The notes beneath the pieces were generated by a model. That model ran no database searches and was not told the DNA's origin. It saw nothing but the letters and a program-made list of their open reading frames with translations. 64,000 bases of DNA from Candidatus Zixiibacteriota bacterium (lineage in GTDB: Bacteria; Zixibacteria; MSB-5A5; GN15; PGXB01), in the NCBI GenBank assembly GCA_900498245.1, contig LS998015.1, forward strand, positions 463,866 to 527,865, given 5' to 3'. Made by a program: the position numbers and the translations under genes. Shown piece after piece: positions 37,196 through 63,166 of this stretch (positions within the stretch are counted from its first letter, which is position 1; each line of letters opens with the position of its first letter).

Positions 37196-37252
37196 TACAT
37201 TTCCGGCTTCCGGGACCTATTATCTTTCTGTGTGGAATGTGAGAAAAATCAC

Positions 37253-42419: not shown

Positions 42420-42426
42420 GTTCACC

Positions 42427-43170: not shown

Positions 43171-45632
43171 ACCAGAATGCAGGCGAAGAATACATTGTAT
43201 GTCCGTACTGTGATGCCACACTCAGGATTCCGAAGACTCAGCAGACACTCAAGATAACATGCCCCAGCTGCACTTCCGTCTTCTTCCACAATCTTCCAAG
43301 AAAACGGCCAAGAATAAATAAGAAGCTGGTTTGGGGAGCGATAATTGTAGCGGTCATCGTTCTGTTTGCTTTACTGAATCAGAATGATAGGCCACATTTG
43401 CCAACAAGTACGGGTCGTGATGCTGCAAGAAGCACCCCGAGCAATTGGATTTCTATTTCCTATGGCGGCCTTGTAGACAAGAATCTATTTACCCATAGCG
43501 GTGAGACGGTTGGCGCCATAATTACACGGATTCCACAATACGACGACGAGTTCAAGGGGCTAGTTCAGCCTTACTTGGAGCCGTTTTCTGTACTTTGCCA
43601 TGACGTGCTGCTAGCCGTCAATGGTCCGGACACATTGCCGTTCGTCAATATTGTCAGTCACTACCCAGTTGGCTCTGAACAACCAGCATGGGCAGCCCTA
43701 TTTAGGGAAGGTCATTATCAGCTCTATTATAGTCCGACCAAGATAAGGCTGTTTTTGGAGGGTACTGACCCACATCGGAGTTTCGAGAAGAACAGATCTG
43801 TAGTGCGACATGCCATAAATGATGTCGTTAGCAACGGGGCAACAAAGATTGATACCGTGGAGATCTATGTATTCACTAACGATTATGCTACTACCACCAT
43901 TAAGCTCAATACGATTCCTGCCTCATATGCTATCGGAGACATAGATCTTGGACCAGAACATCACTCAATCGACCTTGATGCGATCGCTGAGTTCCTGGAT
44001 GAGGGGGTGACTTTGGAGGCTGTAGAAGTTGACCAGAACAACGATCTATATTTCTATGGCAAAGCATCACAAAAACAGACATTAGCGGGCAATGCATTAT
44101 CAACTGCCGACTTGGCTGTTATCTACCGGTCCGTATTTCATTATGGCAATAACTCTCCCTATATTAGCCTCGATAAGCACGAAGACAATAGATTCGCAAA
44201 GGTCAACTTCGGAGGATATTTAGAGGATACTCACGCTGGCAACGTTGTTTTGGAGGCTGATAAACTGTTCAAAGCCCTAAGTACTGGGATTGATCCAAAT
44301 ACTCACAGGATCATACGGGATCGCATTACAAGAGCAGTACCAGATTTTTTAACAGAGGACGAGCGATCGTTAATGGAGAATTCTGGAACGGGCCACACTC
44401 AGATACGCTACTGGTTTTACCCCGATTCAATTGGAACCGTTACTGATGGCTCTATTGGTGCAGTTCTTACAAATCAATTTCTAGCGGACGTCGAGCGAAT
44501 GGACATGCCACTAAACGTCAGCAGTGCTGTTCGTCGCACTATCGGCCACCTTAACAACCATTTTGTTCAATATGAAAGTGCATTCCAGACGTTTCGGGAG
44601 CTGAGTACCGTAGGCAGGTTAATGGCGCTAGTGAACTGGCTACAAGGAATGGATATTTCCAGCAGGGTGGAACTTGATGAGCTACTGACTGTTAGACTCC
44701 CGGCTTTTCAGACTCCGAGAAAAACCACGAAGATGCTGGCAGTAACAGCTGCAGCATATCCGAAGTCGTCTTTCGTTGGTTCAGGAGATATCCGTGATAA
44801 CTCAAAAGTCTACTACATCTCGGATCTGCTGGAAAAGTGTGCCACAAACACAACTGACAAACAGTTTTTGGAGATAGCCGGCACTTACTTCGATAACCTC
44901 AACGCTGATGATCTCGCTCCGCCCCAATATGTAAGCCTTAAGGCTAAGGCTGAATCAATGGAAACAACAATCAATTACTATGATGGGCAGTTGGAATCCT
45001 TGGATAGGCAGATTCAGCAGAGTGAGCGTACACTGGTTGAGTACAGTTCGGTATCCATAAATCAACATAACACACTAGTAGATAAGTATAACGACATGCT
45101 CATCGCCCAGAGAAAAAGAATTGACGACTACAACGTCATCATAAACAGAATCAATAATATGAATTTGGTCACAAACTGTATCACATCAGTCGGTGGCGGC
45201 ATAAACCTGAGGCCTAAAGAGTTTAGAAAGATCACTCGTTCCAAAACCGCCCCGAAAATCGAGGAAATTGCATCACTTAAAGGTAAAGTCAAGTTGATCG
45301 GCAAAATCGCAAGGGCTGGCGACTGGATAAAGAGCCGGGTTGTGAATGGCGGCGCTCGGATAAATGAAATCTCACTTGACACATGGAAGATGGTGAAGTC
45401 CAGTAATGGTACGACAGTCTATTCATACTCTGCTGGCAAAACTGATAAGATGTCAACGACTGTTTCTCCTGCGGGCGGGGGTTGGAAAACTGAGATTGTC
45501 ATTAATGGGCAGGCAGAATTGGCTCAGTATTCAGAGGGAATGAGCTCTGTTCGGGTTAGCCATTCGGAAGGAAACATCCAGGGGGTTGGGAAATTGAACA
45601 AACAAGGTAGTGCAGTGGTATTCTCAAAATGA
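43167..45632 (+). CDS. Zinc-ribbon plus transmembrane protein with large extracytoplasmic domain
   Basis: 821 residues. A cytoplasmic zinc ribbon (C12-x2-C15 and C32-x2-C35) is followed by a basic stretch and one transmembrane helix (about 53-70), as in many MJ0042-type finger proteins. The remaining 750 residues would be outside; they have mixed alpha/beta character, a coiled coil (about 580-650, with ESLDRQIQQSERTLVEY) and a beta-rich glycine/serine end. No enzymatic motif is recognised. Translation overlaps the repeat-protein gene by GTGA. Confidence 0.62.
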   Translation: MNQNAGEEYIVCPYCDATLRIPKTQQTLKITCPSCTSVFFHNLPRKRPRINKKLVWGAIIVAVIVLFALLNQNDRPHLPTSTGRDAARSTPSNWISISYGGLVDKNLFTHSGETVGAIITRIPQYDDEFKGLVQPYLEPFSVLCHDVLLAVNGPDTLPFVNIVSHYPVGSEQPAWAALFREGHYQLYYSPTKIRLFLEGTDPHRSFEKNRSVVRHAINDVVSNGATKIDTVEIYVFTNDYATTTIKLNTIPASYAIGDIDLGPEHHSIDLDAIAEFLDEGVTLEAVEVDQNNDLYFYGKASQKQTLAGNALSTADLAVIYRSVFHYGNNSPYISLDKHEDNRFAKVNFGGYLEDTHAGNVVLEADKLFKALSTGIDPNTHRIIRDRITRAVPDFLTEDERSLMENSGTGHTQIRYWFYPDSIGTVTDGSIGAVLTNQFLADVERMDMPLNVSSAVRRTIGHLNNHFVQYESAFQTFRELSTVGRLMALVNWLQGMDISSRVELDELLTVRLPAFQTPRKTTKMLAVTAAAYPKSSFVGSGDIRDNSKVYYISDLLEKCATNTTDKQFLEIAGTYFDNLNADDLAPPQYVSLKAKAESMETTINYYDGQLESLDRQIQQSERTLVEYSSVSINQHNTLVDKYNDMLIAQRKRIDDYNVIINRINNMNLVTNCITSVGGGINLRPKEFRKITRSKTAPKIEEIASLKGKVKLIGKIARAGDWIKSRVVNGGARINEISLDTWKMVKSSNGTTVYSYSAGKTDKMSTTVSPAGGGWKTEIVINGQAELAQYSEGMSSVRVSHSEGNIQGVGKLNKQGSAVVFSK

Positions 45633-45660
45633 TGAAAATCAAGTCCGGTGATATGGATTA

Positions 45661-46068
45661 ATGGAGATTATTCTAGCAATAATGGGCGTGATTATCGGGC
45701 TGTTCTCGTTTCTGTATGCGCTCAAGACCCAACGTGAAAAGCGCAAATTCGAGAGGTTGGTTAAGTCGAACCTTGCAGGCCTAGCTGGCAGCATCGTAAT
45801 GATTCGGAATAACCCGGCGCTAGCTCACAAGAACATTGATTATATACTGAAACATCTGGATGTAATAGAATCGACGCCTGAATTGAACCGCATTCTGAAT
45901 CGGTTGGCATGGGCTCAAGGCGATTCTGCGGCCGCTCATAGGTTGCTGGAAGTCCTGCTTAACGATGTATTGACACTTCAAGAAGGCCTTTTCGGAACAA
46001 GAGACATTGTTCGCCCTGACAGCCATGAGGAAGGCAATGTAACAAATGAAGTTGAGGGTGCTTCATGA
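45661..46068 (+). CDS. Small membrane-anchored helical protein
   Basis: 135 residues. One N-terminal transmembrane helix (residues 3-20, IILAIMGVIIGLFSFLYAL) is followed by a basic stretch and a TPR-like helical body (HKNIDYILKHLDVIESTPEL and later AAAHRLLEVLL). The tail is acidic. No family is recognised. It lies 28 bases after the zinc-ribbon protein and overlaps the next gene by ATGA. Confidence 0.6.
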   Translation: MEIILAIMGVIIGLFSFLYALKTQREKRKFERLVKSNLAGLAGSIVMIRNNPALAHKNIDYILKHLDVIESTPELNRILNRLAWAQGDSAAAHRLLEVLLNDVLTLQEGLFGTRDIVRPDSHEEGNVTNEVEGAS

Positions 46069-46937
46069 GTGATAATGATCGCGAACAAACCCGGGATCAG
46101 ATACGAAAAGCCAAGGAATTTGTTACTCACTCGAAGGAACGAATAGGCGAACAGATAGAAAAATACCGGGGATTATATGACCAACTTGAGTATTCAGAGT
46201 ATTATCTATCTGAACAGGAGAAGATTCTGTCTCAAGAAGTCTCCGTCCCTCCTATATATACATCAACTGCCAGCGGAATGGCTCACTCTGGAAGCATGAT
46301 TTCCAGTGAAATTGATGGAATGTTGAACTCACAAGAATTGGTATTTCGCGGTATTGAAGACCACACTAAGTTACTTACTAGTTCTGTAACCGGCACTTAT
46401 TCAATGTTAGCAATGCAGACAACTGGTACAATTCACTTCGGTGGCCCTTTACCTAGCTTGGAAATAGATTGGGACTCCCTAGATAGGAGTGTCTCGGAGA
46501 TCGATCCGGATCTGGGCAAAATAGTGCGGGGTGCCAGAGCAGCACTCGACGATCCGTCACCAGATAGCGTTCGCCACGCATGTCATTCCCTACGCGATTG
46601 CCTAACTCATGTGATGGATCGATTGGCTCCTATTGAGGATGTGAAACAAGCCAATTGGTATATAGAAGACAAAACTTCCAAAACTGGTGTCACCAGAAAA
46701 CAACGACTAATCTACATCGCTCTAGGTAGTCACGCCAAAGACACCAATCCTGACGACCTATCCGAATCAGAGCTCGAACTTGTAGCAAATACTATCGAAG
46801 TCAACAATGAGATCATCAAGAACTCGCATAAGCTAAAAGAAGCTCCGGCAGAGAAGATAAAACCCTCGGTGCGGGGTTACTGCTCGAATATCGTTACTCT
46901 CCTAGACCTACACAAGTCTAATAGCCATATCAGCTAA
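46065..46937 (+). CDS. Soluble protein of unknown function
   Basis: 290 residues. N-terminal coiled coil (about 5-60), a serine/threonine-rich middle, then a helical domain with DPDLGKIVRGARAALDDPSPDSVRHACHSLRDCLTHVM (about 145-185, given in parts) and a final helical segment. The RHACHSLRDCL-type helix resembles a segment found in some defence-associated predicted nuclease families, but no catalytic residues can be pointed out, so no function is given. It is the last gene of the 42.4-46.9 kb operon and precedes the first copy of the interspersed repeat. Confidence 0.58.
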   Translation: MSDNDREQTRDQIRKAKEFVTHSKERIGEQIEKYRGLYDQLEYSEYYLSEQEKILSQEVSVPPIYTSTASGMAHSGSMISSEIDGMLNSQELVFRGIEDHTKLLTSSVTGTYSMLAMQTTGTIHFGGPLPSLEIDWDSLDRSVSEIDPDLGKIVRGARAALDDPSPDSVRHACHSLRDCLTHVMDRLAPIEDVKQANWYIEDKTSKTGVTRKQRLIYIALGSHAKDTNPDDLSESELELVANTIEVNNEIIKNSHKLKEAPAEKIKPSVRGYCSNIVTLLDLHKSNSHIS

Positions 46938-46966
46938 TCGCGACCTGCCCCCCCCTAACTTATTGA

Positions 46967-47060
46967 TTTCCAACGAGTTCCGCTTGATGTGGAGTAGCGT
47001 GTTCTTACCGGGAAACTGAATCTCACAAAAGTTTGGGGAGAGTGATATTGGGGCCGCTTT
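46967..47060 (+). repeat. Interspersed repeat R1 (about 94 bp)
   Basis: First of five related copies in the same orientation. It starts TTTCCAACGAGTTCCGCTTG and ends GGGGAGAGTGATATTGGGGC plus CGCTTT. It follows the stop of the 46,065 gene by 30 bases and precedes a strong terminator. Confidence 0.82.
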
Positions 47061-47069
47061 TAACTTTAG

Positions 47070-47095
47070 CCCCGCCGGATGGCGGGTTTTTTTTT
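47070..47095 (+). terminator. Strong intrinsic terminator after R1
   Basis: CCCGCC (47,071-47,076), GGAT loop and GGCGGG (47,081-47,086) are followed by nine T residues. It ends rightward transcription before the convergent PD40 gene. Confidence 0.9.
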
Positions 47096-47143
47096 GGTGA
47101 GTAGACGACAGCAGTCAGGAAGATGGCAAACCCTTCAGGATCG

Positions 47144-48073
47144 CTACATCTTCAGATGTTGTCTTACCGAGTCGATTATCGAGGCATCCATCCAGTAGAT
47201 TCTATTCATTAGACCGTTCTTCTGGCTGATAAAGAACAGATATTTCCCATCCGGGCTGACTGAAGCGCATAGGTCATTGGCCTCACTGTTGATATTATCT
47301 TCCATGCTTCCGGCTTCCGTCCAGTGCCCCAGGGAATCCTTGAAACTGATATACAGATCCGCCTTGCTGGTCTCGGTCCCAACACGTGTGAAGATCAGGT
47401 AACTCTCATCCCGGGCGACGAACGGCGCCAGGTCCATTCCGTCGCTGTTTATGGCAGGGCCGACATCGACCGGCTCAAGGTACTTCTCACCGTCGAAACG
47501 AGCCATGTAAATGTCCTGTTCACCTCTGACACCCGGCATCTCAGAAGTAAAGTATAGATTCTTGTTATCAGCAAATGAGAATGTCCAATGAGTCGGGTGG
47601 GCCAGTACAGCGTCATCGATAAGCCGAGGAGCAGACCAGCTGTTTCCATCACGTTCGGCATACCAGATTCTTTCCTTTTCAGGCGCGTTGGGATACGGAG
47701 GATGGAAAGAAGTGAAGTAGACTCTGCTACCGTCGGGCCAGAAGGTGGCATCGCCGACCCCGCATTCAAGGCCGAAATTTATCTCTCTGGGTATCGACCA
47801 ATGCCCATCGACTATCGTGGATATCTCCAGACAGTCCTCCTGTTTCATCGGGCTCCATACCGCCTCGGTGAAGTCAGGGGCGAATACCACCGGGGAGTGG
47901 TAACCATGCTCAGCGTTAAAAAGATCTGGGGCGAATAGTTCGGGGGGTATTCCTGGAGGTTCCTGTCCAAAATACCGACCTTGTAGTCTCGGGAAACCGC
48001 CTTCCCGTACTCCAGCAAACGAAGTCAGTACTACCGCAGCCATTATTGCAGGGTAGTTTACGCCGCACTTCAT
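47144..48073 (-). CDS. PD40/TolB-like beta-propeller protein, secreted
   Basis: 309 residues with a weak signal peptide and repeated WD40-like PD40 blocks: AEVWSPM-type, FWPDGSRVYFTSF near residue 110, SFADNKNLYFTSEMPG near 170, FVARDESYLIFTRVG near 220 and VSPDGKYLFFISQKNG near 275. Such propellers bind partners at the envelope. It is the only gene between repeats R1 and R2 and runs against the neighbours, so it is a block of its own. Confidence 0.8.
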   Translation of the reverse strand: MKCGVNYPAIMAAVVLTSFAGVREGGFPRLQGRYFGQEPPGIPPELFAPDLFNAEHGYHSPVVFAPDFTEAVWSPMKQEDCLEISTIVDGHWSIPREINFGLECGVGDATFWPDGSRVYFTSFHPPYPNAPEKERIWYAERDGNSWSAPRLIDDAVLAHPTHWTFSFADNKNLYFTSEMPGVRGEQDIYMARFDGEKYLEPVDVGPAINSDGMDLAPFVARDESYLIFTRVGTETSKADLYISFKDSLGHWTEAGSMEDNINSEANDLCASVSPDGKYLFFISQKNGLMNRIYWMDASIIDSVRQHLKM

Positions 48074-48147
48074 ACGTCCGATACTTTCAATTCGATGTTC
48101 AACTGTACTACGTCTGAGAGCATATTTTGTTACGAGTCATTTTATTA

Positions 48148-48240
48148 TTTTCCAACGACTTCCGCTGGCCGTCGAGTAGTGTAACCGGATATTAATTTTG
48201 AAAGCACCAAAGTTTGGGGAGAGTGATATCGGGGCCACTT
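48148..48240 (+). repeat. Interspersed repeat R2 (about 93 bp)
   Basis: Starts TTTTCCAACGACTTCCGCTG and ends AAAGTTTGGGGAGAGTGATA, then TCGGGGCCACTT. It is closest to R1 and R5. It lies upstream of the PD40 gene start and before the TetR block. Confidence 0.82.
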
Positions 48241-48515
48241 AATAATATCTCTTCATACTGCAATCAATTACGGTTGCAAAAAAATCCAATATCACACTCC
48301 TCAAACTCTCCATAAATCGACTTAAGGGCACAACTATTCGCACAAGTCCCTGTAGTCGAAAAGTCCTGGGATGAAATTGTCTCATGAGACCCGAGAGCCT
48401 GGTCTTCGTCCCACGGTGCTCCCAACTAGATTTCTGTTGTCGATAAGAGTCTTTCCGCGTCTTTAAAGGTGCAGATATCAAGATTGCAGAAAGCTCATAA
48501 AAAAGTAACCTATCC
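48241..48515. other. Non-coding stretch before the TetR block
   Basis: No supported gene on either strand. A small hairpin GCAATC/GGTTGC follows R2 and precedes a run of A residues, which could terminate leftward transcription. Together with R2 and the operator it makes a gene-free gap of 495 bases. Confidence 0.4.
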
Positions 48516-48539
48516 ATGCAAACAAATACTTGCTTGCAT
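48516..48539. promoter_or_regulatory. 24-base palindrome, probable TetR operator
   Basis: ATGCAA...TTGCAT arms with an inner CAA-TA-TTG-like core match their reverse complement at 20 of 24 positions. It ends 29 bases before the TetR start codon and overlaps the promoter region, the standard place for autorepression. Confidence 0.6.
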
Positions 48540-48568
48540 ACGTTATGCTAATTGGAAAGGCCAAACCA

Positions 48569-49183
48569 ATGGGAAGAATAAAGAAAAGTATACCGAGCAA
48601 GAAGTCTACCGATGTGAGGCAGCGTGAGATTATCGATGCCGCTATGAAGATACTTACCTCAGATGGTGCACGGCAGTTTACGGCTGAAAGATTGGGCAAA
48701 GAGGTGGGTTTGGCCAGCGGCTCCATTTTTCGGCATTTCCGTTCCTTAGAAGAGATTCTTGACGGCGTCGTGGACAGGGTCGAGGAAATCATCTTTACAG
48801 ATCCACCTTCACGGGGGAATAGCCCGCTGGAGACACTGCGTCTTTTCTTTGAATTCCGGGTACTAGCCATCCATGAACACCCGGAGGTTTCGAGACTTCT
48901 GCTGACGAGTATACTGATTCCCAAGGGCAAGAGGTCGGCGCGGGACCGACGCTTACGGGAATTTAGACTGCGTTCAAGACGGATAATTATGGACTGCCTG
49001 AAGGAAGCAAAAAAGGAAGGCGCCCTAAGTAAAGGGATTCACCTTGAGGCCGCCACTATGTTAGTACTGGGTGCCATATATGCTATTGGTCACGTACCAG
49101 CGGGATCAAACCAAGGCAATATCGATAGCGGCTTGATCCGGCACATTTGGCATCTGCTCGAAAGATCACTAACGAATGGATAA
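48569..49183 (+). CDS. TetR-family transcriptional regulator
   Basis: 204 residues from ATG 48,569, which has GGAAAGG ten bases before it; earlier in-frame starts lie over the palindrome. The helix-turn-helix is at about residues 36-58 (FTAERLGKEVGLASGSIFRHF). The C-terminal helical part has no recognised ligand. It is transcribed with azurin and NirK genes and may respond to nitric oxide, nitrite or copper stress; that part is inference. Confidence 0.85.
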   Translation: MGRIKKSIPSKKSTDVRQREIIDAAMKILTSDGARQFTAERLGKEVGLASGSIFRHFRSLEEILDGVVDRVEEIIFTDPPSRGNSPLETLRLFFEFRVLAIHEHPEVSRLLLTSILIPKGKRSARDRRLREFRLRSRRIIMDCLKEAKKEGALSKGIHLEAATMLVLGAIYAIGHVPAGSNQGNIDSGLIRHIWHLLERSLTNG

Positions 49184-49197
49184 CAAGGAGTTTCACA

Positions 49198-49710
49198 ATG
49201 AAATCTAGCCTACTTATACCGTCAAATCTGGCTCTCACTGTGCTATTGTTACTTGCAATAGTCTTCCAGGGATGCAGTAATAAGGCCGAGAATCGGACTC
49301 ACACTAACCAGGTACAGCAGTCTTCCAGCAGAGATACCGTTCGGCTGGAGATTACCGGTAATGACCAGATGAGATACAATGAAAAGGAGTTGCGGGTTAA
49401 GGCAGGTGACGTGGTAGTACTCACCATGAAGCATGTGGGCCAGATGCCCAAGACGGTAATGGGCCATAATTGGGTCCTATTGAAGCACGGAGTTGACATG
49501 GCCAGCTTCGCACAGGATGCAATGCAGGCCAAGGCCACTGACTATATTCCAGCAGCTCGTAGTGGTGACATTATCGCTCATACAAAACTGCTTGGTGGCG
49601 GAGAATCAGATACTATCACCTTCGACGCTCCAGCCCAAGGAACATATACTTTTCTTTGTTCATTTCCCGGACATTATGGAACCATGAATGGACTGTTTAT
49701 CGTCGAGTAG
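49198..49710 (+). CDS. Azurin-like cupredoxin lipoprotein
   Basis: 170 residues. Lipobox FQGC sets the lipidated cysteine at C26. The mature protein is a type 1 blue copper protein: GHNWVL gives the first histidine, and CSFPGHYGTMNG supplies cysteine, histidine and methionine. It carries electrons at the envelope, here most likely to the nitrite reductase encoded next. SD AGGAG lies nine bases before the ATG. Confidence 0.9.
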   Translation: MKSSLLIPSNLALTVLLLLAIVFQGCSNKAENRTHTNQVQQSSSRDTVRLEITGNDQMRYNEKELRVKAGDVVVLTMKHVGQMPKTVMGHNWVLLKHGVDMASFAQDAMQAKATDYIPAARSGDIIAHTKLLGGGESDTITFDAPAQGTYTFLCSFPGHYGTMNGLFIVE

Positions 49711-49831
49711 GCCGATCCAGCTTCCCAAGCGATCCCCGGACAAAAATGCCAATTGGTATCGGGTATTTGTCCCATCTGGATCGCGAGCAGGGGTCATAGT
49801 ATACGGGAATGGATACGACCGACGGCAAGGA

Positions 49832-49860
49832 GAATGGAGTATAAAGAAGAATGGAGTATA
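49832..49860 (+). repeat. Short tandem repeat at the nirK ribosome site
   Basis: GAATGGAGTATA occurs at 49,832-49,843 and 49,849-49,860. The second copy carries the GGAG used for the GTG start at 49,864, so the ribosome site is duplicated. Confidence 0.7.
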
Positions 49861-49863
49861 TAA

Positions 49864-51006
49864 GTGAGTAAGGCGCTGAATACAATAGATAAGGATCTGG
49901 GCTCTACAGGTATGTCGCGGTTGACCTTTCTCAAGTTGAGCGGTGCATTGTTGGGCACAGGCCTGCTCGTAGCCTGCAATCTTGGAACAAGTGAGGATGG
50001 CTCATCAAGTAAGTCTGATGAGCCTTTGGATAGCAATGCTGGTTCTGCCGCGGCTGCAGCAGCTGTTCCGTTGGTAGTCAAAAGGGTAGCAGCAGAGCCC
50101 TCGAAAATTCCTCCACCTGTCAAACACACCATGCCTAAACTCCACCGGGTCAGTATTTCCTGCCAGGAGATCGTGGGAGAAATTGAAACGGGGAAGCGCT
50201 TTCAGTATATGACCTTCAACGGTCAGGTGCCGGCCCCAATGCTGCGTGCAAGGCAGGGTGATACTATCGACTTATCGGTTACCAATGCCAGTACTGCAAT
50301 GCATCCTCATAGCGTAGACTTTCATGCCGTATATGGTCCGGGCGGAGGTGCCGAAGCAACCATGGTTGCACCTGGACAGACAAGACATCTCAAATTCAAA
50401 CTGATGTATCCAGGAGCATTCATCTATCACTGCGCGGTACCTAACCTGGATTACCACATCAGTAGTGGTATGTATGGCCTAATTTTGGTGGAGCCATACA
50501 AGGGACTTCCGCCGGTAGATCATGAATTCTACTTCGGTCAAAATGAAATCTATGTTCAGACCCGGAACATAGGATCTAATGGCCTGTTGCCGTTTGATTT
50601 CATCGCTTTAACGGACGAGAATCCGCAGTATGTTGTGCTCAATGGTGAAAGTGAAGCAATTACAGACTTCCGATATGGCTCGCTGAAAGTCAAAAAAGGT
50701 GAAACCGCAAGGATCTTCTTTGTGAATGGCGGACCTAATCTGATCAGCAGTTTCCATGCGATTGGCAATGTCTGGACCAAAGTTTGGCGTGAAGGTGCGC
50801 TAATCAATACACCCGAGCGGTATCTACAGACTGTGGCTGTCAGCCCGGGTAGTTGTGCGGTACTCGAGATGGAATTTCCTGTGCCGGGATCCATAAAACT
50901 GGTAGATCACTCACTAAGCAGGGTCGTTCATAAAGGGGTAATGGCGACAATCGATGTCGAAGGTGCACCTGAGCTGGAGATATTTGACCCAACCAACACA
51001 CAGTGA
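49864..51006 (+). CDS. nirK: Copper nitrite reductase NirK-like, lipoprotein
   Basis: 380 residues. An N-terminal MSRLTFLKLSGALLGTGLLVAC region resembles a Tat/lipoprotein signal with one arginine of the twin pair missing. Two cupredoxin domains follow. Type 1 copper ligands are HPHSVDFH, YHCAVP and SSGMYG; type 2 ligands are the histidine in VDFHA, the one in YHC and another in DHSLSRVVHKG. It reduces nitrite to nitric oxide in denitrification. The azurin gene just upstream is the obvious electron donor. No nitric oxide reductase is visible here. Confidence 0.88.
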   Translation: MSKALNTIDKDLGSTGMSRLTFLKLSGALLGTGLLVACNLGTSEDGSSSKSDEPLDSNAGSAAAAAAVPLVVKRVAAEPSKIPPPVKHTMPKLHRVSISCQEIVGEIETGKRFQYMTFNGQVPAPMLRARQGDTIDLSVTNASTAMHPHSVDFHAVYGPGGGAEATMVAPGQTRHLKFKLMYPGAFIYHCAVPNLDYHISSGMYGLILVEPYKGLPPVDHEFYFGQNEIYVQTRNIGSNGLLPFDFIALTDENPQYVVLNGESEAITDFRYGSLKVKKGETARIFFVNGGPNLISSFHAIGNVWTKVWREGALINTPERYLQTVAVSPGSCAVLEMEFPVPGSIKLVDHSLSRVVHKGVMATIDVEGAPELEIFDPTNTQ

Positions 51007-51157
51007 GTTCCCGATTGATAGGTGCTGATGTAACTGGGTCAGATCAGATGGCGCGAAGTAGTGTTCTGTATCGTGTAAAGAAAGATCGCTGACGCTATTT
51101 GTAAGGTGAAAGGCCGGGCAAACACTTGGCAATTACTGTTGAAATTAGGAGTCAAAA

Positions 51158-51616
51158 ATGAGTGCTATGAATCCAAGAATCGACTTCAATAAAAAATACA
51201 GACAAGCGCTTGCAGGGTTATTTGAACTGGAACGATTTGTTGAGGCGGCTGGAATCGACAAATCACTTCTTGAGCTTGTAAAGTTACGGGCATCACAGAT
51301 AAATGGTTGCGCATTCTGTATAGATATGCATACCAAAAATGCACGCAAGGCAGGTGAGTCAGAACAACGGCTTTATGCCTTAAGTGCCTGGCATGAAACT
51401 CCGTTCTACACTGACCGTGAGCGGATAGCTCTGCAATGGACCGAAGCGCTCACGCTTATTGCTCAAACTGAAATTAGTGATGGACTTTACTCTGCCGCAA
51501 AGGAGCAATTTGGTGAAGATGGACTTGTTGTCCTTACGATGGCGATTGTGAGCATCAACGGCTGGAACCGTCTGGCCATAAGCTTCAGAACGGTCCCTGG
51601 TTCGTATAATGTCTGA
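51158..51616 (+). CDS. AhpD/carboxymuconolactone decarboxylase family protein
   Basis: 152 residues with the CMD signature ASQINGCAFCIDMHTKNARK, where CAFC is the redox pair and H the proton relay, followed by YALSAWHETPFYTDRERIAL. Proteins of this family act as peroxidase or alkylhydroperoxidase partners. The gene follows nirK by 151 bases and has AGGAG before the ATG. It may protect from reactive nitrogen or oxygen species. Confidence 0.88.
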   Translation: MSAMNPRIDFNKKYRQALAGLFELERFVEAAGIDKSLLELVKLRASQINGCAFCIDMHTKNARKAGESEQRLYALSAWHETPFYTDRERIALQWTEALTLIAQTEISDGLYSAAKEQFGEDGLVVLTMAIVSINGWNRLAISFRTVPGSYNV

Positions 51617-51658
51617 AGAACTGGGTGGGAAACGGCCCACTGTCGCGGAGTATTAGAA

Positions 51659-52015
51659 ATGGCGATTCACGTTCAAATCAAGCGCATTTATGAGATGCCT
51701 GACGATAAGGACGGCCACCGAATTCTGATCGATCGGCTCTGGCCTCGTGGAATCAGAAAGGCTGATGCGAACCTGGATGAGTGGAACAAGGCAATTGCGC
51801 CGTCCGCCGAACTCCGAAAGTGGTTTGGCCATCGCGAGGATCGGTTTGCAGATTTTGCAGAGCGCTACAGGCGTGAACTGCGTCAGAAGAACGGTGAACT
51901 CGGGCGCCTTAGGAAGATCGCAGATAAAGACGGACTAACATTGCTGTATGGTGCCAAGAGCGAAAAGATCAACCAGGCAGTAGTGCTGCAGCAGGTTCTA
52001 GAGACCAATGAGTAA
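51659..52015 (+). CDS. DUF488 family protein
   Basis: 118 residues with the family features IKRIYEMP, ILIDRLWPRGIRK near residues 21-33 and WNKAIAPSAELRKWFGH. The family is widespread and has no assigned reaction. It lies 43 bases after the AhpD-like gene, in the same direction, and closes the block in front of repeat R3. Confidence 0.88.
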   Translation: MAIHVQIKRIYEMPDDKDGHRILIDRLWPRGIRKADANLDEWNKAIAPSAELRKWFGHREDRFADFAERYRRELRQKNGELGRLRKIADKDGLTLLYGAKSEKINQAVVLQQVLETNE

Positions 52016-52096
52016 GGGGGTACATTTATCCTCGGCATATGTGAACGCCTCAATTTGATAACGTGAGAAATCTATGCGCAACCAGCTAACAGATTG

Positions 52097-52191
52097 TTTG
52101 CCAACGCGTTCCACTTGAGCTGGGGTGGCCAAAACGCACCCGGAGTACAAACTCGATAAAAGTACGGGGAGAGTGAGGTCGGGGCCGCTTT
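52097..52191 (+). repeat. Interspersed repeat R3 (about 95 bp)
   Basis: Starts TTTGCCAACGCGTTCCACTT and ends GGGGAGAGTGAGGTCGGGGC plus CGCTTT. It follows the DUF488 stop by 81 bases; the rest of the stretch 52,016-52,354 holds a terminator and no gene. Confidence 0.82.
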
Positions 52192-52204
52192 GATTGAAAC
52201 TCGG

Positions 52205-52236
52205 ACCCTTTAGCAAATATGTCAAAGGGTTTTTTG
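52205..52236 (+). terminator. Intrinsic terminator after R3
   Basis: ACCCTTT (52,205-52,211) and AAAGGGT (52,224-52,230) form a 7-bp stem with a 12-base loop, followed by TTTTT. Confidence 0.78.
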
Positions 52237-52354
52237 TATATAGGGCATAATACCGCTTATAGTGACTCCGCCAATCCGGAACCAAGCCGGAGTTACTTCC
52301 CAATTGACAAATGGGTCCTTAAAGTAGTAATTTCCTTTTAAATATAAATGCGGA

Positions 52355-53110
52355 GTGGCTTTGGATATCTGGAAATTCTACGGTATTACGCATAAAAAGC
52401 ACCTGGTTTGCAATCCCACAAGCGAAGCCAAACTAGTACATCTCGTCAAGATTCTGAACCTGCCTAAAGGGGCCGGAGTGGTCGATATCGCCTGCGGCAA
52501 AGGAGAGTTTTTGATTCGACTGGCCGAGCAATATGAAGTAAGAGGATTCGGAGTAGATATATCCCCATACTGCATCGAAGATTGCAAAAAGAAAGCCGCC
52601 GACAGATTGTTCAAGCCCAACATCGAATTCACAAAGATGGATGGTGCCGATTTCAGGCCGGAACAACCTGCGAGCCTGCAAATGGCCGCCTGCATCGGGG
52701 CCAGCTGGGTATTTAAAGGCCACAATGAAACGCTAGAAACATTGAAAAGCTGGGTTGTCCCGGGCGGCCTGGTAATCGTAGGCGAGCCATTCTGGCTCCG
52801 TGATCCCTCGCAGGAATATCTGGATGCATCAGGCAGTCAAAAGGGGGACTTTGGGACTCATGCCGATAATGTCAAGGCTGGAGAGAAACAGGGGCTTCAA
52901 CTTGTCTATACCATTGTCAGCGACAAAAATGACTGGGATCAATATGAGGGCCTGCAGTGGTTGGCGGCTGATGAATACGCGCGTCAGAATCCCGATGACC
53001 CGGACATAACCGAACTCATGAACCGAGTTACGTCGGATAAGGACATCTACCTCAAGTGGGGCAGAGATACTATAGGATGGGCGATTTATATTTTCAGACG
53101 TAATGAATGA
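52355..53110 (+). CDS. Class I SAM-dependent methyltransferase
   Basis: 251 residues. Motif I VVDIACGKGEFLIRLA (residues 42-57) and motif II FGVDISPYCI give the SAM fold, with the post-motif AACIGASWVF and VPGGLVIVGEPFW following. The substrate cannot be told from sequence. GTG 52,355 is the likely start. It stands alone between R3 and R4. Confidence 0.85.
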   Translation: MALDIWKFYGITHKKHLVCNPTSEAKLVHLVKILNLPKGAGVVDIACGKGEFLIRLAEQYEVRGFGVDISPYCIEDCKKKAADRLFKPNIEFTKMDGADFRPEQPASLQMAACIGASWVFKGHNETLETLKSWVVPGGLVIVGEPFWLRDPSQEYLDASGSQKGDFGTHADNVKAGEKQGLQLVYTIVSDKNDWDQYEGLQWLAADEYARQNPDDPDITELMNRVTSDKDIYLKWGRDTIGWAIYIFRRNE

Positions 53111-53145
53111 GGTTACTTTCCCTGCCCATTTTCATTATCTTAATA

Positions 53146-53239
53146 CTCTCGAATACGTTACGTCAAGAATCGCATAGTTAAGCGGCACGTCGAAGGCAAA
53201 TTGTACAGAAATCAGGGGAGAGTGAGGTTGGGGCCGCTT
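53146..53239 (+). repeat. Interspersed repeat R4 (3' half well conserved)
   Basis: The last 25 bases, GGGGAGAGTGAGGTTGGGGC plus CGCTT (53,215-53,239), match the other copies. The 5' half is diverged and its start is set only by length. Confidence 0.65.
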
Positions 53240-53303
53240 GTATTGGGAGTATCACGTAGGAGGTCGTTACGCCCCGGGACGGAAAGTCTCGTCGGCCCCG
53301 CCA
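53230..53303 (+). other. 74-base tRNA-like fold after R4
   Basis: GGGGCCG (53,230-53,236) pairs with CGGCCCC (53,293-53,299), followed by GCCA, and CGTAG/TTACG makes a 5-bp stem with a 7-base loop in the middle. The total of 74 bases is tRNA-sized. There is no proper D arm, no T loop and no U33, so it is not a functional tRNA. It may be a decayed tRNA fragment or chance. Confidence 0.3.
53286..53301 (+). other. Candidate right attachment site (imperfect tRNA-Asp match)
   Basis: GTCTCGTCGGCCCCGC agrees with 787-802 at 14 of 16 positions, in the same orientation. A strong terminator follows. Two mismatches in the centre weaken the case for a recombinase core. Confidence 0.3.
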
Positions 53304-53310
53304 TAGAATG

Positions 53311-53339
53311 AAAAAGCCCCGGTTTCGGCCGGGGTTTTT
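53311..53339. terminator. Strong bidirectional terminator
   Basis: CCCCGG (53,317-53,322) and CCGGGG (53,329-53,334) form a stem flanked by AAAAA on the left and TTTTT on the right. With R4 and the tRNA-like fold it fills the gene-free stretch 53,111-53,480. Confidence 0.88.
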
Positions 53340-53480
53340 GATTGGCATTAAAGCATCATATTTTTCTGTTAAAAACAACTGTAGTGATTATATTGAGGCC
53401 GTGAGCTGGAACCAGACAATGCCACGCTTTGAACGGCCCTCCCTCCACTTGGCACCGTCAGACTGTGTTAGGCTATTCCA

Positions 53481-53864
53481 ATGAGCCGATTTCTTTTCAA
53501 ACGCAAGGCTATCGCGGTGTCCGTCGCCGTGATCGTTGGATTACTTCACTTCATCACAGGTCCAACTTATCATGGTCCTTTTCGGGCTTTCGTCAACGGT
53601 TATATGATCGACATCCTCCTTCCATTAGCAATGTATCTGGTTCTTGGTGTCAGCGTGCAACCGATCGCGCGCAGTGGCATTGCCAGAGGTACCTTTGTAT
53701 TCGCGATTGGAGCCATTACGGAAACGATGCAGTGCTTCGGCGTTCCGATTTTTGGTCGAACATTTGATCCGCTGGACTACCTCATGTTTGGGATAGGAAT
53801 CGGGCTGGCAGCACTTTTTGAGAAAATTATGTTTTTCAACAATCCGATCGGGAGTCGCTCTTAA
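53481..53864 (+). CDS. VanZ-like membrane protein
   Basis: 127 residues with three to four hydrophobic helices (about 10-28, 43-60, 70-85 and 95-113). The segment TETMQCFGVPIFGRTFDPLDYLMFGIGIGL is split here as TETMQCFGVPIFGRTFD and PLDYLMFGIG; the acidic D-x-x-D and Q/E pattern fits the VanZ-like domain. No other resistance genes are nearby, so a role in glycopeptide resistance is not implied. It stands alone between R4 and R5. Confidence 0.72.
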   Translation: MSRFLFKRKAIAVSVAVIVGLLHFITGPTYHGPFRAFVNGYMIDILLPLAMYLVLGVSVQPIARSGIARGTFVFAIGAITETMQCFGVPIFGRTFDPLDYLMFGIGIGLAALFEKIMFFNNPIGSRS

Positions 53865-53955
53865 AAGCAGGGGAGTCGTGGTCTGATTTCCTGTCAGGTA
53901 ACTTCAGTCGTTTGCAACAGGCTCGATCGGCAGCCTTTTTATAAACTCATATTAT

Positions 53956-54047
53956 TTTCCACCGACTTCCGTCGATTCCGGTGTAGTGTAAACGGACTCG
54001 GAACTGGAAGCTCAAAAGAGTCTGAGGAGAGTGAGGTCGGGTCCATT
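53956..54047 (+). repeat. Interspersed repeat R5 (about 92 bp)
   Basis: Starts TTTCCACCGACTTCCGTCGA and ends GAGGAGAGTGAGGTCGGGTC, with a T run next. Its ends can pair (TCCACCGACT with AGTCTGAGGA, 8 of 10). It is in the gap 53,865-54,215, which holds no gene. Confidence 0.75.
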
Positions 54048-54124
54048 TTTTTTTCCAGGGAATTCAGCCTGCGCTTTCGACTACCGGTCGCAGAATTCGT
54101 CCCGTAGGGTCCACCATTTTTGAT

Positions 54125-54147
54125 AAGCCGCTGTGATACAGCGGCTT
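54125..54147. terminator. Perfect hairpin between R5 and the GNAT gene
   Basis: AAGCCGCTGT and ACAGCGGCTT form a 10-bp stem with a GAT loop. It can serve as a terminator for the leftward GNAT gene, though no T tract follows directly. Confidence 0.55.
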
Positions 54148-54215
54148 ATGTGTTTATAAGATACTGTCACCGAAGAGTGGCGCTCGGCTCTCATAACGAT
54201 CGGTCGAACCTCGGT

Positions 54216-55037
54216 CTATCTTTTCAATCTCCATGTCTCCATAACCCGGAATGGGGGCCGGCCAAGGCGTGCGAAAAGAGCCAGCGCTGCTGCGTTTCTC
54301 GATGCGGTTCCGTCATGGTAGGTTTTCCCGCCCATGGTCTTTAGAGAATGGAGCGCCTGAAGCATAGCGGCTGCACCAAATCCGCGCCCGCGGAAGGAGG
54401 GCAAAACGCCAAGGTAGTAGATAGTCGACCATCCGTCACTAGGATAGGTTTTGAGCGCGAGAACCGCGGCGGGATCGTTCCCACACATCCCGATCTGGAG
54501 TCGTTCGGGGGCCTGGACCGTTTCTTTCTCCTCGATAAGGGCTCTTAAAAATCCCGTAATATCTTCGTCCGGATTCGATGCCGGGTCGCTCTCGCTTGCC
54601 TGACGGAACAAGTCGACCGCCCGCGCGAGATCCGACTCGCATTCCGCGTTGACGCATTCCCAGACAAGATCAGCGTCATTCTCCGCCGCATCAAGCCTAC
54701 TTAGTGCATCCGCGAGATCCATTTGGTACTCGACGCGATCCTCGCCCCTCGCAAAACCGCGGGCGGAGAGGAAATTGCGATGAAGCGCGGCGCGAGCGGA
54801 TGTCAGCGCTTCATCGACACCTTCGTTTGCAGTAATCACACGACTGCTAATGTAGAGCGCACCCTCCTTCTCGCATTCCGCGATGCTTGATTCGAGAGCT
54901 TCATGGAAGCTGCGCTCATCCGGAAGTCCATCGACTCCCTTTTTCCAGGAGACAACGATGGCCCACCCCGCGCGATCCTCTTGAAAAACAATCAGGCTGG
55001 CGCAGTTGATACCGTTTTCATTTGTAAGGTTGATCAT
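54216..55037 (-). CDS. GNAT-family N-acetyltransferase
   Basis: 273 residues. The C-terminal half is a GNAT domain: IYYLGVLPSFRGRGFGAAAM (residues about 208-227) supplies the acetyl-CoA loop R-G-R-G-F-G, and SRNAAALALFARLG is the following helix. The N-terminal 140 residues are helical and not recognised. The ATG at 55,037 has AGGAG eight bases upstream. Substrate unknown. Confidence 0.82.
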   Translation of the reverse strand: MINLTNENGINCASLIVFQEDRAGWAIVVSWKKGVDGLPDERSFHEALESSIAECEKEGALYISSRVITANEGVDEALTSARAALHRNFLSARGFARGEDRVEYQMDLADALSRLDAAENDADLVWECVNAECESDLARAVDLFRQASESDPASNPDEDITGFLRALIEEKETVQAPERLQIGMCGNDPAAVLALKTYPSDGWSTIYYLGVLPSFRGRGFGAAAMLQALHSLKTMGGKTYHDGTASRNAAALALFARLGRPPFRVMETWRLKR

Positions 55038-55485
55038 TCATGACTCCTTTTACCGTGTTTTGAAACTCGGAGCCATTTTGGAGGAATCGGGTTTGAAGTT
55101 AGCCGAGGTTGGCGAAGGTGATCCGACTCGCTTTCACAGTATGACTCCGCGCAAAATTCATACGCATAACTCGAATTACCTCCTTTCCGGTTAGCCGCAC
55201 GGATCCCGACGTGGGGCCGGTACGGCGCAAAGACCATCGGAAATATATCATAGTTTCCCCGGTGTGTCAAGTGCAGCCTACTTAAATAGATGCAACTCGG
55301 GTGTCGACATAGCCTGAATTCCCGGGTTACGCTGCCGTGTTTCTCAATCAGCCGGTTGCGGAATTCATCTCCTAAGCCCCTCTTTTGCAATTGGTTTTAT
55401 TTAGATGGAAAAGACTACTGGTGTCCGGGTCCCATTATTATTTGCCCCTTACAAGTAAACTCAGGGATAGTTGTCAAAGGCGTCC
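55038..55485. other. Gene-free stretch
   Basis: 448 bases without a supported gene. Short open frames occur on both strands, but they lack SD sequences and have unlikely composition. It separates the GNAT gene from the end of the exporter/two-component operon. Confidence 0.5.
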
Positions 55486-56790
55486 TCAATTCCCAAATAC
55501 TATCTGAAATTCCGTTTTGTCGTCATCGTTTTTTTTCAGGCTAAAAGCAAATCCGTGATTCATCAGTATTTCCCGGATCAGGGTGAGTCCGATGCCCTGA
55601 CCATTCTTCTTTGTGGTAAAAAAGGGAACAAATAAATTGGATGAAATATAGGGATCAAAACCCCGACCGGAATCAATGATGCTAAGCATTTTGGGATTGG
55701 GGCAAGTGCGGATAATTATGAACCCGTTCCGGTCGATGGCTTCGGTAGCATTTTTAAAAATATTTATCAAGGCCTGTTCCATCTGACTGACATCGATTTC
55801 GACATCAAGGGTATGAGGAGAAAGTTCCAGGCGCCATTCGATATTTCGTGCCGAACTGTTCTCATTCATCAGGGAGTGGATCGATTTGAGTAATTTGTGC
55901 ACATCATATTTTACTTTATTCGGCGGCGGGATTCGTACCACATCGGCAAAATTTTCCACGAATTTGCCCAGACGGCGATTTCGTTCGATGGCTACGCTGA
56001 CGGCTTCATGATAATCGGTGCGATCATTCTCATTCAGCTGAAATTCGTAGTCGAGGACGGAATTAAGGATGGAGTTTATGGCCCCAACCGAATTGTTGAC
56101 TTCATGCGACATGGCCCGGATGACTTTCTCATAGGCGGTCCGCTGTGTCCCGATTATCTCCGCCGTCAACTCCTCAAGCAGAAGAAACTGGCGATGAAAA
56201 CCGCGGTCCAGAAATTGCGATTTATGGCAGCGATAAACGCGGATGCCGCCGAACCGGATGATGCGCGACTCTCCCGGTTCCATTTCCGCCAGGCAATTGA
56301 ACGGCTCACCTCCTTTGTCAATAAGAGGTCGACCGGCGGTTAAAGGGAGAGAAGCGCCGAGTATTTTTTCGGCGGCCGGATTAATAAGGGAGACCTTCTT
56401 GTCCAGATCGAGGACCACCACGCCGATTGAGGCCGCATTAATCAGGCGCTCCAGGAAATAATTCTGCTCCTGCTGGCTGAGCCGCTCCAGCCGCAACTGT
56501 TCAATCATCCGATTGTAAACTTCAATCAGATGATCCAGTTCGTCATTTCCTGTTTTCGTAACGGTGCAACTGAAATCGCGGTCGCGAATCGAATCCACTC
56601 CGGCCGCCAGAATTTCAAGCGGCCTGACAAAGTTGCGATAAAGACGATAGGAAACGGCGGCGCTGATAAGGACGAGCAATTGCATTCCAAAGAAGAGAAA
56701 TTTATTGTATGCCAGCAGGAAATAGGCCAAAACGGTAAGAATCAGATGAAGAGCTATTACAAAATAAAGAAATTTATTGCGAAGTTTCAT
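55486..56790 (-). CDS. Sensor histidine kinase (NtrB-like) of the exporter operon
   Basis: 434 residues. Two transmembrane helices (about 7-28 and 34-50) flank a very short periplasmic loop, so sensing is probably in the membrane or cytoplasm. HAMP follows (about 52-100), then a PAS domain (about 110-210), HisKA with the phosphoacceptor in AMSHEVNNSVG near residue 229, and the ATPase domain with N box NIFKNATEA, DSGRGFDP and GQGIGLTL. It overlaps the regulator gene by 17 bases. Confidence 0.9.
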   Translation of the reverse strand: MKLRNKFLYFVIALHLILTVLAYFLLAYNKFLFFGMQLLVLISAAVSYRLYRNFVRPLEILAAGVDSIRDRDFSCTVTKTGNDELDHLIEVYNRMIEQLRLERLSQQEQNYFLERLINAASIGVVVLDLDKKVSLINPAAEKILGASLPLTAGRPLIDKGGEPFNCLAEMEPGESRIIRFGGIRVYRCHKSQFLDRGFHRQFLLLEELTAEIIGTQRTAYEKVIRAMSHEVNNSVGAINSILNSVLDYEFQLNENDRTDYHEAVSVAIERNRRLGKFVENFADVVRIPPPNKVKYDVHKLLKSIHSLMNENSSARNIEWRLELSPHTLDVEIDVSQMEQALINIFKNATEAIDRNGFIIIRTCPNPKMLSIIDSGRGFDPYISSNLFVPFFTTKKNGQGIGLTLIREILMNHGFAFSLKKNDDDKTEFQIVFGN

Positions 56791-58156
56791 AGGGAAGACC
56801 GTATTTTTCGAGCCGGCGGTACAAAGCGCCTCGGCTCAACCCCAGGGAGCGGGCCACTTTGCTGATATTCCCCTGATGAAATTGCATCGCCCTGTTAATC
56901 ATCGACTTTTCCATCTCTTCCAGAGTCACGGTTCCGACCGCCGGAAGCGTAATGGTCTCCGCCTGCCGCGGCGACAATTCATAATGCCTTTGAAAATCTC
57001 CGATTTCAAGGGAATCGTGCGTCGTGACCAGCACTGTCCTTTCGACGAGGTTCTTTAACTCCCGGATATTTCCGGGCCAGGGCAGGGCTTGAAGCCAATT
57101 CATGGCGGCGGGGCTTATCTGCAATTCGGGACGTTCATAAAGCTGCTTGATGTTGTCGGCAAAAAACTGCACCAGGAGGGGGATATCCTTGCGGCGTTCC
57201 CGCAGTGGAGGCAGATATAGAGATATGAGATTTATTCGATAAAAGAGATCCTCCCGAAATTGACCGGAGGCCACCTTCCGTGCCAGGTCTTGATTGGTGG
57301 CGCTGATCAGGCGAAAATCGGCGGTTCGGGGGATACTTGTCCCCAGGGCCTCAAAACTTCGATCTTGAAGGACACGCAGGAGTTTCACCTGACTGGCGGC
57401 ATCGATGTCACCAATCTCATCGAGAAATATCGTGCCTTCATGAGCCAATTCAAATCGTCCGACACGATTCTGAATGGCGCCGGTGAAAGCCCCTTTCTTA
57501 TGCCCGAACATCTCACTCTCAAATAGTTCCGTATGTATCCCGCCGAGGTTGACTTTTATAAACGGCCCATTTTTCCGCCGGCTATTGGCGTGAATGGCTT
57601 CAGCCACTATTTCTTTTCCGGTGCCGCTTTCGCCCAGGATCAGGACCGAAGCGTCGGTAGAACTCACCTTCCCCGCAATCCTCAATACTTCCAGTAATTT
57701 CTCGTCCGATCCGATTATACTTTCAAAATTGTATAATTGATTTAGTCCGGTTCGATCATACGTTGCCGTATCCGGCGAACCATCTTGTTGCGACAGATGC
57801 AGAATTGTCTTTACCGAAGCCAGAAGGAAGTCATTGTTCCACGGCTTGGTGATAAAATCGGAAGCCCCCAGTTTCATCCCCTTCACCGCCAGCGATATTG
57901 AACCCCAGGCGGTTATGAGGATTACCGGCAGATCGGGATAATCCGTTTTGATTTGTTTCAGAAGCGCCAGTCCTTCTTCACCCGAGGTGGCACGGGAAAA
58001 ATTCATATCAAGAATGCATAAAGATGGGATTTTACCGGCGATTGCCGCAAGAGCCCCTTGGGGATCCTCGGCCTCGGCCGTCTCATACCCGGATTTTCTC
58101 AAGAGAAAATTAAGAGAAGCTCTGACAGCATTGTCATCATCGACAATCAATATCAT
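56774..58156 (-). CDS. NtrC-family sigma-54 response regulator
   Basis: 460 residues. Receiver domain with acidic pocket VDDD (residues 5-8), phospho-aspartate in CILDMNF near residue 50, T in ITAWG and K in TKPW. The AAA+ domain has Walker A GESGTGKE near 175, the sigma-54 contact loop GAFTGA, and Walker B IFLDEIGDI. The C-terminal HTH_8 is NISKVARSLGLSRGALYRRL. It should activate a sigma-54 promoter, most simply the one of its own exporter operon. It follows the permease gene by 41 bases. Confidence 0.92.
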   Translation of the reverse strand: MILIVDDDNAVRASLNFLLRKSGYETAEAEDPQGALAAIAGKIPSLCILDMNFSRATSGEEGLALLKQIKTDYPDLPVILITAWGSISLAVKGMKLGASDFITKPWNNDFLLASVKTILHLSQQDGSPDTATYDRTGLNQLYNFESIIGSDEKLLEVLRIAGKVSSTDASVLILGESGTGKEIVAEAIHANSRRKNGPFIKVNLGGIHTELFESEMFGHKKGAFTGAIQNRVGRFELAHEGTIFLDEIGDIDAASQVKLLRVLQDRSFEALGTSIPRTADFRLISATNQDLARKVASGQFREDLFYRINLISLYLPPLRERRKDIPLLVQFFADNIKQLYERPELQISPAAMNWLQALPWPGNIRELKNLVERTVLVTTHDSLEIGDFQRHYELSPRQAETITLPAVGTVTLEEMEKSMINRAMQFHQGNISKVARSLGLSRGALYRRLEKYGLPYETSQ

Positions 58157-58197
58157 TGTGTTTTTTTCCTGAGGCGCTTTATTGATCGTTCGGACTC

Positions 58198-60638: not shown

Positions 60639-60647
60639 AGCATTCCC

Positions 60648-61313: not shown

Positions 61314-61333
61314 TTTTATCCTCACGAGTTTTG

Positions 61334-62596: not shown

Positions 62597-63166
62597 ACAT
62601 TTTTATCCTTGCATTATCCAGAATATCTTTATCAATTTTTGTGCCAATGCTTATTTCTATGTGTTTCAATAGATTAAGATGTAAGTCGGCCGTTCCGATC
62701 GTTCGGAAATGGACAGTTTGTGCAATAATGGATAATTTCCCCGGAATCCGGAAAGGGGTTGAATATTCGACGGCAGTGAAAAATTTTGTGAGCGGCGCAT
62801 TTTAAGAGTAAAATAATGGCGATAAGAGAAGTTCCAACGATCATCGAAGGGCTCAATCAAAGTGGGAACCGAAAAATTTAATAAATGTCGGGGAAGTATA
62901 TTGTTAGCGCGGGGGCCATTGGGTGCTCAGCGTCGGGAGTTAGCGGCGGAAAGTCGAGTGGCGTCCGTGAGTGTTTGCACGCGTGCCCGCAAACGACCGA
63001 TCGGGAGCTCCTTATGTGGATAATATGGGTCCAAATTTATTGAAACGACGCAACCAGGAACATTTGCAGCCGTTCCCTTGTTTAGATCACGTGAACTTCG
63101 TTTGATTGGACTCGAAAGAGTCCAAGTTCATAATTGTTCGTCCCTAAGACAAGGAAAGGGTATCCA
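62597..63166. other. Intergenic region with exporter promoter and no gene
   Basis: 570 bases between the divergent exporter operon and the cupin gene. Short open frames on the minus strand lack SD sequences. A palindrome lies at 62,693-62,708, and another inverted pair, GTTTGC and GCAAAC, near 62,980. I could not point to a convincing sigma-54 -24/-12 sequence by eye. Confidence 0.5.
62693..62708. promoter_or_regulatory. Palindrome upstream of the exporter operon
   Basis: TTCCGATCGTTCGGAA has perfect 6-bp arms around TCGT. At about 100 bases upstream of the adaptor start it is placed like an enhancer site for the NtrC-type regulator of the operon. Confidence 0.35.

Follow-up and report, generated by a model that had tools for sequence, protein, structure and literature searches.

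Tandem arrays of putative serine recombinase attachment sites 3' of tRNA-Asp in Candidatus Zixiibacteriota

Integrative and conjugative elements (ICEs) and cis-mobilizable elements can stack site-specifically at a single attachment (att) site, and elements that lack an integrase are then moved by a neighbour. The 64-kb window analysed here (64,000 nucleotides of contig LS998015.1, assembly GCA_900498245.1, from a Candidatus Zixiibacteriota bacterium; part of a complete single-contig genome of 3,508,505 bp) contains five same-strand repeats of ~100 bp each, R1-R5, which very probably are the att-site junctions of elements that large serine recombinases (LSRs) have stacked in tandem, with the tRNA-Asp 3' end as their target. 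This reading draws on sequence comparison throughout: one-way arrays adjoining tRNA-Asp, integrases and relics that enter the sites, cassettes shared between genomes, the lack of linkage between the two sides of the core, and selection on a short coding tail. The closest precedents are the ssrA islands of Dehalococcoides and the staphylococcal cassette chromosome (SCC), and ‘tandem accretion’ is a term already in use for such stacking (PMC5704250, PMC3146451). For the ssrA-specific genomic islands of Dehalococcoides it was suggested that the integrase, DsiB, might reach full function only when its element is circular or has a neighbour with the missing 3' fragment, and the DsiB tails were reported to be divergent in length and sequence (PMC3146451).

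One-way arrays of sites beside tRNA-Asp

The features on which the argument turns are these:
551..624, plus strand: tRNA-Val (tac), upstream partner of the target tRNA (ARAGORN)
727..802, plus strand: tRNA-Asp (gtc), putative insertion target, attB side (ARAGORN; pattern search of 132 genomes)
793..2346, minus strand: LSR-III, 517 amino acids, with PF00239, PF07508 and PF13408; reads into the tRNA-Asp 3' end and stops there (...SDKKRG, stop)
46958..47060, plus strand: R1, putative att-site junction (profile); its minus strand encodes the tail RPQYHSPQTFVRFSFPVRTRYSTSSGTRWKSIS, then stop
48140..48240, plus strand: R2, putative junction (profile); tail frame disrupted by an indel
52090..52191, plus strand: R3, putative junction (profile); tail RPRPHSPRTFIEFVLRVRFGHPSSSGTRWQTIC, then stop
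52188..52256, minus strand: LSR 3'-end relic CPIYKKPFDIFAKGSEFQSK, sharing the reading frame of the R3 tail (58.6% over 29 amino acids by tblastn, E 3e-4)
53138..53239, plus strand: R4, putative junction (profile); tail RPQPHSPLISVQFAFDVPLNYAILDVTYSRVLR, then stop
53948..54047, plus strand: R5, putative last junction (profile); tail RPHSPQTLLSFQFRVRLHYTGIDGSRWKII, then stop

The sequence-only reading of this DNA had placed five repeats here, in one orientation and always between genes, and the profile matches bear this out: all five are on the plus strand and all are intergenic. The conserved right part, GGGGAGAGTGANNTNGGGNCC, has exactly five matches in the 64 kb at up to 3 mismatches, against a chance expectation of 0.07 for the window, and five were reached in 0 of 100 shuffles. 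Genome-wide the exact pattern occurs five times, always on the plus strand and inside one 7-kb stretch, with no further copies elsewhere in the complete 3.5-Mb genome. The copies are thus not spread at random, and inverted repeats at their ends are not present; the earlier suggestion of a non-autonomous mobile repeat fails on this lack of scatter and on the finding, described below, that cassettes move rather than the repeat alone. The junctions consist of a 75-bp left arm and a shared core, GGGGAGAGTGANNTYGGGGCCGC, with ~25-30 bp of core near-identical between sites. An inverted core fragment, CCAATATCACACTCCTCAAACT, lies ~50 bp right of R2 (48286-48307) and is 91% complementary to the R1 core.

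In a comparison set of 132 genomes of the phylum Zixibacteria (designated by G numbers below), the right-hand pattern was found in 32 and the left-arm profile in 72. Genome G014 has 39 matches, and one contig, G020:C5, carries ~20 same-strand sites over 48 kb. We counted 134 sites in 41 loci; 30 of these loci hold at least two sites and none of the 30 mixes orientations. Sites are a median of 1.9 kb apart, a large open reading frame contains a site in only 1 of 123 cases, and the flanking genes show no orientation bias (75 in the same orientation, 94 opposite). Nearly all named public records with the repeat belong to Candidatus Zixiibacteriota. Sites also occur on contigs labelled Spirochaetales, Neomarinimicrobiota and Abyssobacteria (L054, L061 and L065), which may reflect interphylum transfer or misbinning. 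No viral contig was matched by the site pattern or by the LSR-III protein.

The arrays adjoin tRNA-Asp. Nineteen contigs hold both, and there 39 of the 40 sites are positioned 3' of the tRNA-Asp gene and share its strand, at distances of 1.4 to 78 kb. The tRNA-Asp gene at 727..802 is the sole match to the tRNA-Asp pattern in this genome, and LSR relatives elsewhere sit at tRNA-Asp beside tRNA-Val, the same pair that stands at the start of the window. To the right of the core, the same type of DNA is found at sites and after tRNA-Asp (CCGC, then TT or CA), and both share the same integrase 3' ends and terminators on that side. Genomes G091 and G023 carry truncated tRNA-Asp 3' ends beyond a site, on its far side. 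Several contigs terminate just past tRNA-Asp, as would be expected of a variable, repeat-rich hot spot.

Integrases that read into the sites, and a coding tail in the left arm

An LSR or its relic is present at a minority of sites, and all LSRs and LSR fragments close to a site read into it. In G063, an open frame of 533 codons, which includes resolvase, recombinase and zinc-ribbon domains, traverses a site and ends in the peptide that the left arm encodes; it shares PF00239, PF07508 and PF13408 with the LSR at the start of the window. In other genomes the LSR relatives end in ...RGRRDSNSRPPA, which is the tRNA 3' end read antisense, and at tRNA-Asp the LSR halts at once (KKRG, stop) or after GRRDSNSRPPA. 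All 14 tRNA-Asp LSRs examined share one phase, such that each, if joined to R1, would gain a 33-residue tail in frame. LSR-III shares 95-96% identity with the tRNA-Asp LSRs of three genomes from other genera and in part other families (G063, G064 and G083), so the proximal element has moved recently. A second, distant integrase type that uses the same site, LSR-II, was seen in G064 (L165, 5449-7017) and G077 (L019). Further LSR relatives (L173-L201) are located at, or next to, tRNA-Gln, Asn, Ser, Arg or Glu, so target choice shifts often in this family. We found nothing relevant in the literature on Zixibacteria integrases.

That the left arm might be coding was suspected from the near gap-free alignment of the sites, since 136 of 159 aligned copies are free of indels. 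The middles of the repeats, earlier described as variable, are therefore not free to vary: read on the minus strand, the left 75 bp show amino-acid conservation, as RP[QR][YP]HSPQTFVxFxFxVxxxYxxxxGxRWKxI followed by a stop. A BLOSUM-based score for amino-acid selection on this frame gave z 4.97, and none of 1000 column shuffles matched it; the tail frame was the strongest, ahead of one plus-strand frame at z 2.8. It is open for 30 codons in 111 of 143 copies (35 and 71 for the other two minus-strand frames) and has its stop exactly at codon 33 in 53 of the 143. Codon-position entropy and the ratio of nonsynonymous to synonymous polymorphism (pN/pS) gave weak signals, and it is the BLOSUM test against column shuffles that is decisive. 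We conclude that an LSR tail of 33 residues, under amino-acid selection, is encoded on the antisense strand of the left arm. A free protein-coding gene within the repeat was considered and rejected, as the tail profile gave no long open reading frame besides the LSR and no Pfam family; among the 132 genomes, the only long gene with the tail peptide in frame is the LSR. The structure predicted for LSR plus tail is unreliable (mean predicted local distance difference test score, pLDDT, of 57, with the tail below 50), and the hairpin predicted at residues 507-520 is not evidence. What the tail does is a further step from these data: its selection suggests a role when the element is circular or stacked.

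The T-tailed terminators reported behind some of the repeats are real; they lie outside the repeat, at the start of the cassette that comes next, and the terminator behind R3 is a coding leftover of an integrase, as the relic at 52188-52256 is the terminator when read on the plus strand. Near the LSR 3' end, the codons for KPFDILAKG form on the opposite strand an intrinsic terminator placed to end the tRNA-Val/tRNA-Asp transcript, and this overlap recurs in several genomes to the right of tRNA-Asp.

Cassettes are shared between genomes, with boundaries at the core. The methyltransferase cassette between R3 and R4 is homologous to one in G040 from core to core. At its upstream site the left arms are only at the between-site background (49% alike), whereas the right side reaches 95% over 22 bases and 74% beyond; at its downstream site the similarity stops after the core, and outside the cores it falls to background. 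The downstream left arm is kept in the matching cassettes of G090, G115 and G083, at 82-86% for G090 and G115; past GGGGCCGCTT similarity drops to 21-26%. The sister species G063 and G064 share a site together with its left flank of 5-6 kb, but the LSR element that comes next differs between them, the two being only 33% alike. Blocks are thus exchanged between genomes, and the fixed order of blocks in relatives that would have told against cassettes was not found. In 122 dereplicated sites, left-arm similarity was correlated within the arm (r 0.30, p 0.0005) and uncorrelated across the core (r 0.01, p 0.38). Linkage within the arm, none across the core and sharing from core to core are what recombination at the core predicts. 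The NNT dimorphism shows only faint linkage to either side, and the exact crossover base would lie within GGGGAGAGTGANNTYGGGGCC.

A model of tandem accretion and its rivals

The sequence-only reading had offered recombination sites of an unknown insertion system as one possibility; it was right as to the kind of site, and the system can now be named, as tandem LSR elements at tRNA-Asp. In the model that we propose, the attP of an excised element would consist of its far arm, the core and the integrase end. The element would insert at tRNA-Asp or at an adjacent site, the newest one abutting the tRNA, and each older boundary would then be a composite of one element's 75-bp far arm, the core and the neighbour's integrase-side end. 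The integrase gene abuts the core and reads into it. At tRNA-Asp it stops almost immediately; in the circle, or at a junction with a neighbour, its frame would continue into the 75-bp arm and so acquire the 33-residue tail. Most cassettes have lost their integrase or never had one, leaving cargo between sites, with LSRs as the likely agents of recombination and integrase-less cassettes probably mobilised in trans. It is possible, and we put this forward tentatively, that the integrase is in effect a split gene, with its C-terminal tail at the opposite end of its own element or of a neighbouring one; complete only in the circle or at a junction, its form would report, and may control, the state of integration.

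Several findings sit uneasily with tandem accretion by LSRs. Excision and the excised circle are inferred rather than observed. The core matches the tRNA-Asp end at only 12 of 18 bases, and no tRNA-Asp fragment was found at the far end of the array in this genome. Genome G087 is the one exception to the orientation of sites 3' of tRNA-Asp; G023, G025, G027 and G079 carry sites not shown to be near tRNA-Asp, and for some of these four no intact tRNA-Asp was found in the assembly. Finally, LSR-II of G064 reads into its site in a different frame, ending GPNITLPKLL and a stop, so the tail is not universal.

The likeliest rival to this model would be a fossil array, in which R1-R5 are former attachment sites of an integrase and present-day cassette sharing proceeds by homologous recombination between repeats or flanks. 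Most cassettes indeed lack an integrase gene or hold only a relic, no integrase that reads into a site remains inside the array of this genome, and the R2 tail frame is broken. We nevertheless find a fossil array unlikely, given that tail and core are still conserved across genera, that the near-identity of the proximal integrase between members of different families indicates recent transfer, and that ~25-30 bp of near-identical core offers little for homologous exchange.

Far less probable are the two explanations that rely on folding. The array does have the look of gene cassettes without attC structure, as first described, and a chromosomal integron without its own integrase gene would likewise give one-way sites between genes and cassettes exchanged between genomes, the repeats being divergent attC sites and the blocks cassettes moved by IntI via folded single strands. 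Yet folding of either single strand is slightly poorer than that of its dinucleotide shuffles (126 copies, mean z +0.37 and +0.31), and the covarying columns of the site are mostly adjacent or non-complementary; on these two grounds the idea of an attC site, which came from the pairing of TCTTCCAAC with GTTTGGGGAGA, was ruled out. No integron integrase scored above cut-off in this genome or any site-bearing genome. The only one above cut-off for TIGR02249 is a true integron integrase in G107, a Zixibacteria genome without sites (G107:C318:33120-34063, L067, 361.7 bits). Nor is there a tyrosine recombinase near the array, the closest being ~260 kb off. With a fixed site length and almost no indels, multigene blocks without orientation bias, and serine integrases at the sites, an integron is very hard to sustain. 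The alternative of a structured or regulatory RNA family at gene 3' ends, with its own terminator, had been raised by the sequence-only reading, and we regard it as more improbable still. It could account for the enrichment of terminator-like hairpins right of sites (26 of 153 right flanks have one; of random positions, 4 of 153 do), but such terminators also stand directly 3' of tRNA-Asp (17 of 43 flanks), where they end the tRNA transcript, and the genes next to sites show no strand preference. The repeat folds no better than shuffles, matches no Rfam family and covaries mostly at adjacent or non-complementary columns, and thus qualifies neither as an attC site nor as a structured RNA.

The island and its place among known systems

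The remainder of the window is laid out as follows:
2347..46957, no strand assigned: island DNA from the proximal integrase to R1, with ABC-3C-like genes, a coupling-protein-like ATPase and DISARM genes (Pfam, PADLOC)
47061..48139, no strand assigned: cassette R1-R2, PD40 protein at 47144-48073, minus strand (PF07676)
48241..52089, no strand assigned: cassette R2-R3, TetR, cupredoxin, multicopper oxidase, CMD and DUF488 (Pfam)
52192..53137, no strand assigned: cassette R3-R4, methyltransferase at 52355-53110, plus strand
53240..53947, no strand assigned: cassette R4-R5, small VanZ-like membrane protein at 53481-53864, plus strand, no Pfam hit
54112..55362, no strand assigned: GNAT block, 81% over 1256 bp with G040, where it directly follows a site
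55486..62739, minus strand: flanking chromosome with a kinase/NtrC-type regulator and a transport block, syntenic within the genus (G089, 78% over 7.28 kb)

Homologues of the 55486-62739 block lie beyond the array in G078, and the gene left of tRNA-Val is the same in several relatives. With conserved genes on both flanks, the variable region can be sized at ~54.7 kb here and ~14 kb in G078; here it contains the LSR, the ABC-3C-like genes, a DISARM locus and the R1-R5 cassettes. The stretch 2347..46957 may be one element or several; homology to G063 and G083 covers only parts of 793-11.9 kb. Immediately behind the proximal integrase are the ABC-3C-like genes (CTD7 domain; DUF3732; 2665-6352), and the DISARM-type genes of this tRNA-Asp island (12270-24995) comprise DrmD, an MmeI/Eco57I-like methylase, DrmA and DrmB. 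At 42138-42420, loci in G014 and G028 match, at 78-79% identity, the stretch that encodes the C-terminal FlgD/type IX sorting-like domain of a 1668-amino-acid protein, with no such match for the remainder of the gene. The GNAT block begins ~65 bp past R5 in this genome, with a poly-T and an unshared stretch between them.

If tandem accretion by LSRs is correct, an unexplained repeat becomes a phylum-wide gene-capture system of uncultured bacteria that does without integrons, and the hot spot 3' of tRNA-Asp would collect exchangeable cassettes that encode enzymes, regulators and defence systems such as the DISARM genes found here. The selected tail of a serine integrase that traverses its own site, present only in the circle or beside a neighbour, would also bring sequence evidence to the question posed in Dehalococcoides and, if true, provide a simple built-in means of tying integrase activity to the state of integration.

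Among described systems, the ssrA islands of Dehalococcoides differ in their target, which here is tRNA-Asp; in their divergent tails, where ours is a conserved 33 residues with a stop fixed in many copies; and in scale, as the cassettes here are often 1-3 kb and far more numerous. Like SCC, SCCmec and the Enterococcus cassette chromosome (CcrA/CcrB at rlmH; PMC6222049), the Zixibacteria arrays involve LSRs, integration into a conserved gene's 3' end, att sites present in several copies and composite elements with and without recombinase genes. Unlike them, they show a single recombinase gene and a tRNA target, the integrase reads into the att site, and an att arm encodes part of the integrase. 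Compared with the tandem accretion of ICEs and cis-mobilizable elements, what is seen here is phylum-wide, reaches ~20 sites per contig, and involves a serine integrase and a coding att arm. The likeness to integrons lies in one-way sites between exchanged gene cassettes, whereas IntI and foldable sites are absent, gene strands are mixed and cassettes are multigene. Of solved full-length serine integrases, YokA of SPbeta (PDB 9dxh and others) matches LSR-I (E 1e-9, residues 40-376); the similarity is low, and the 33-residue tail has no counterpart in the match.

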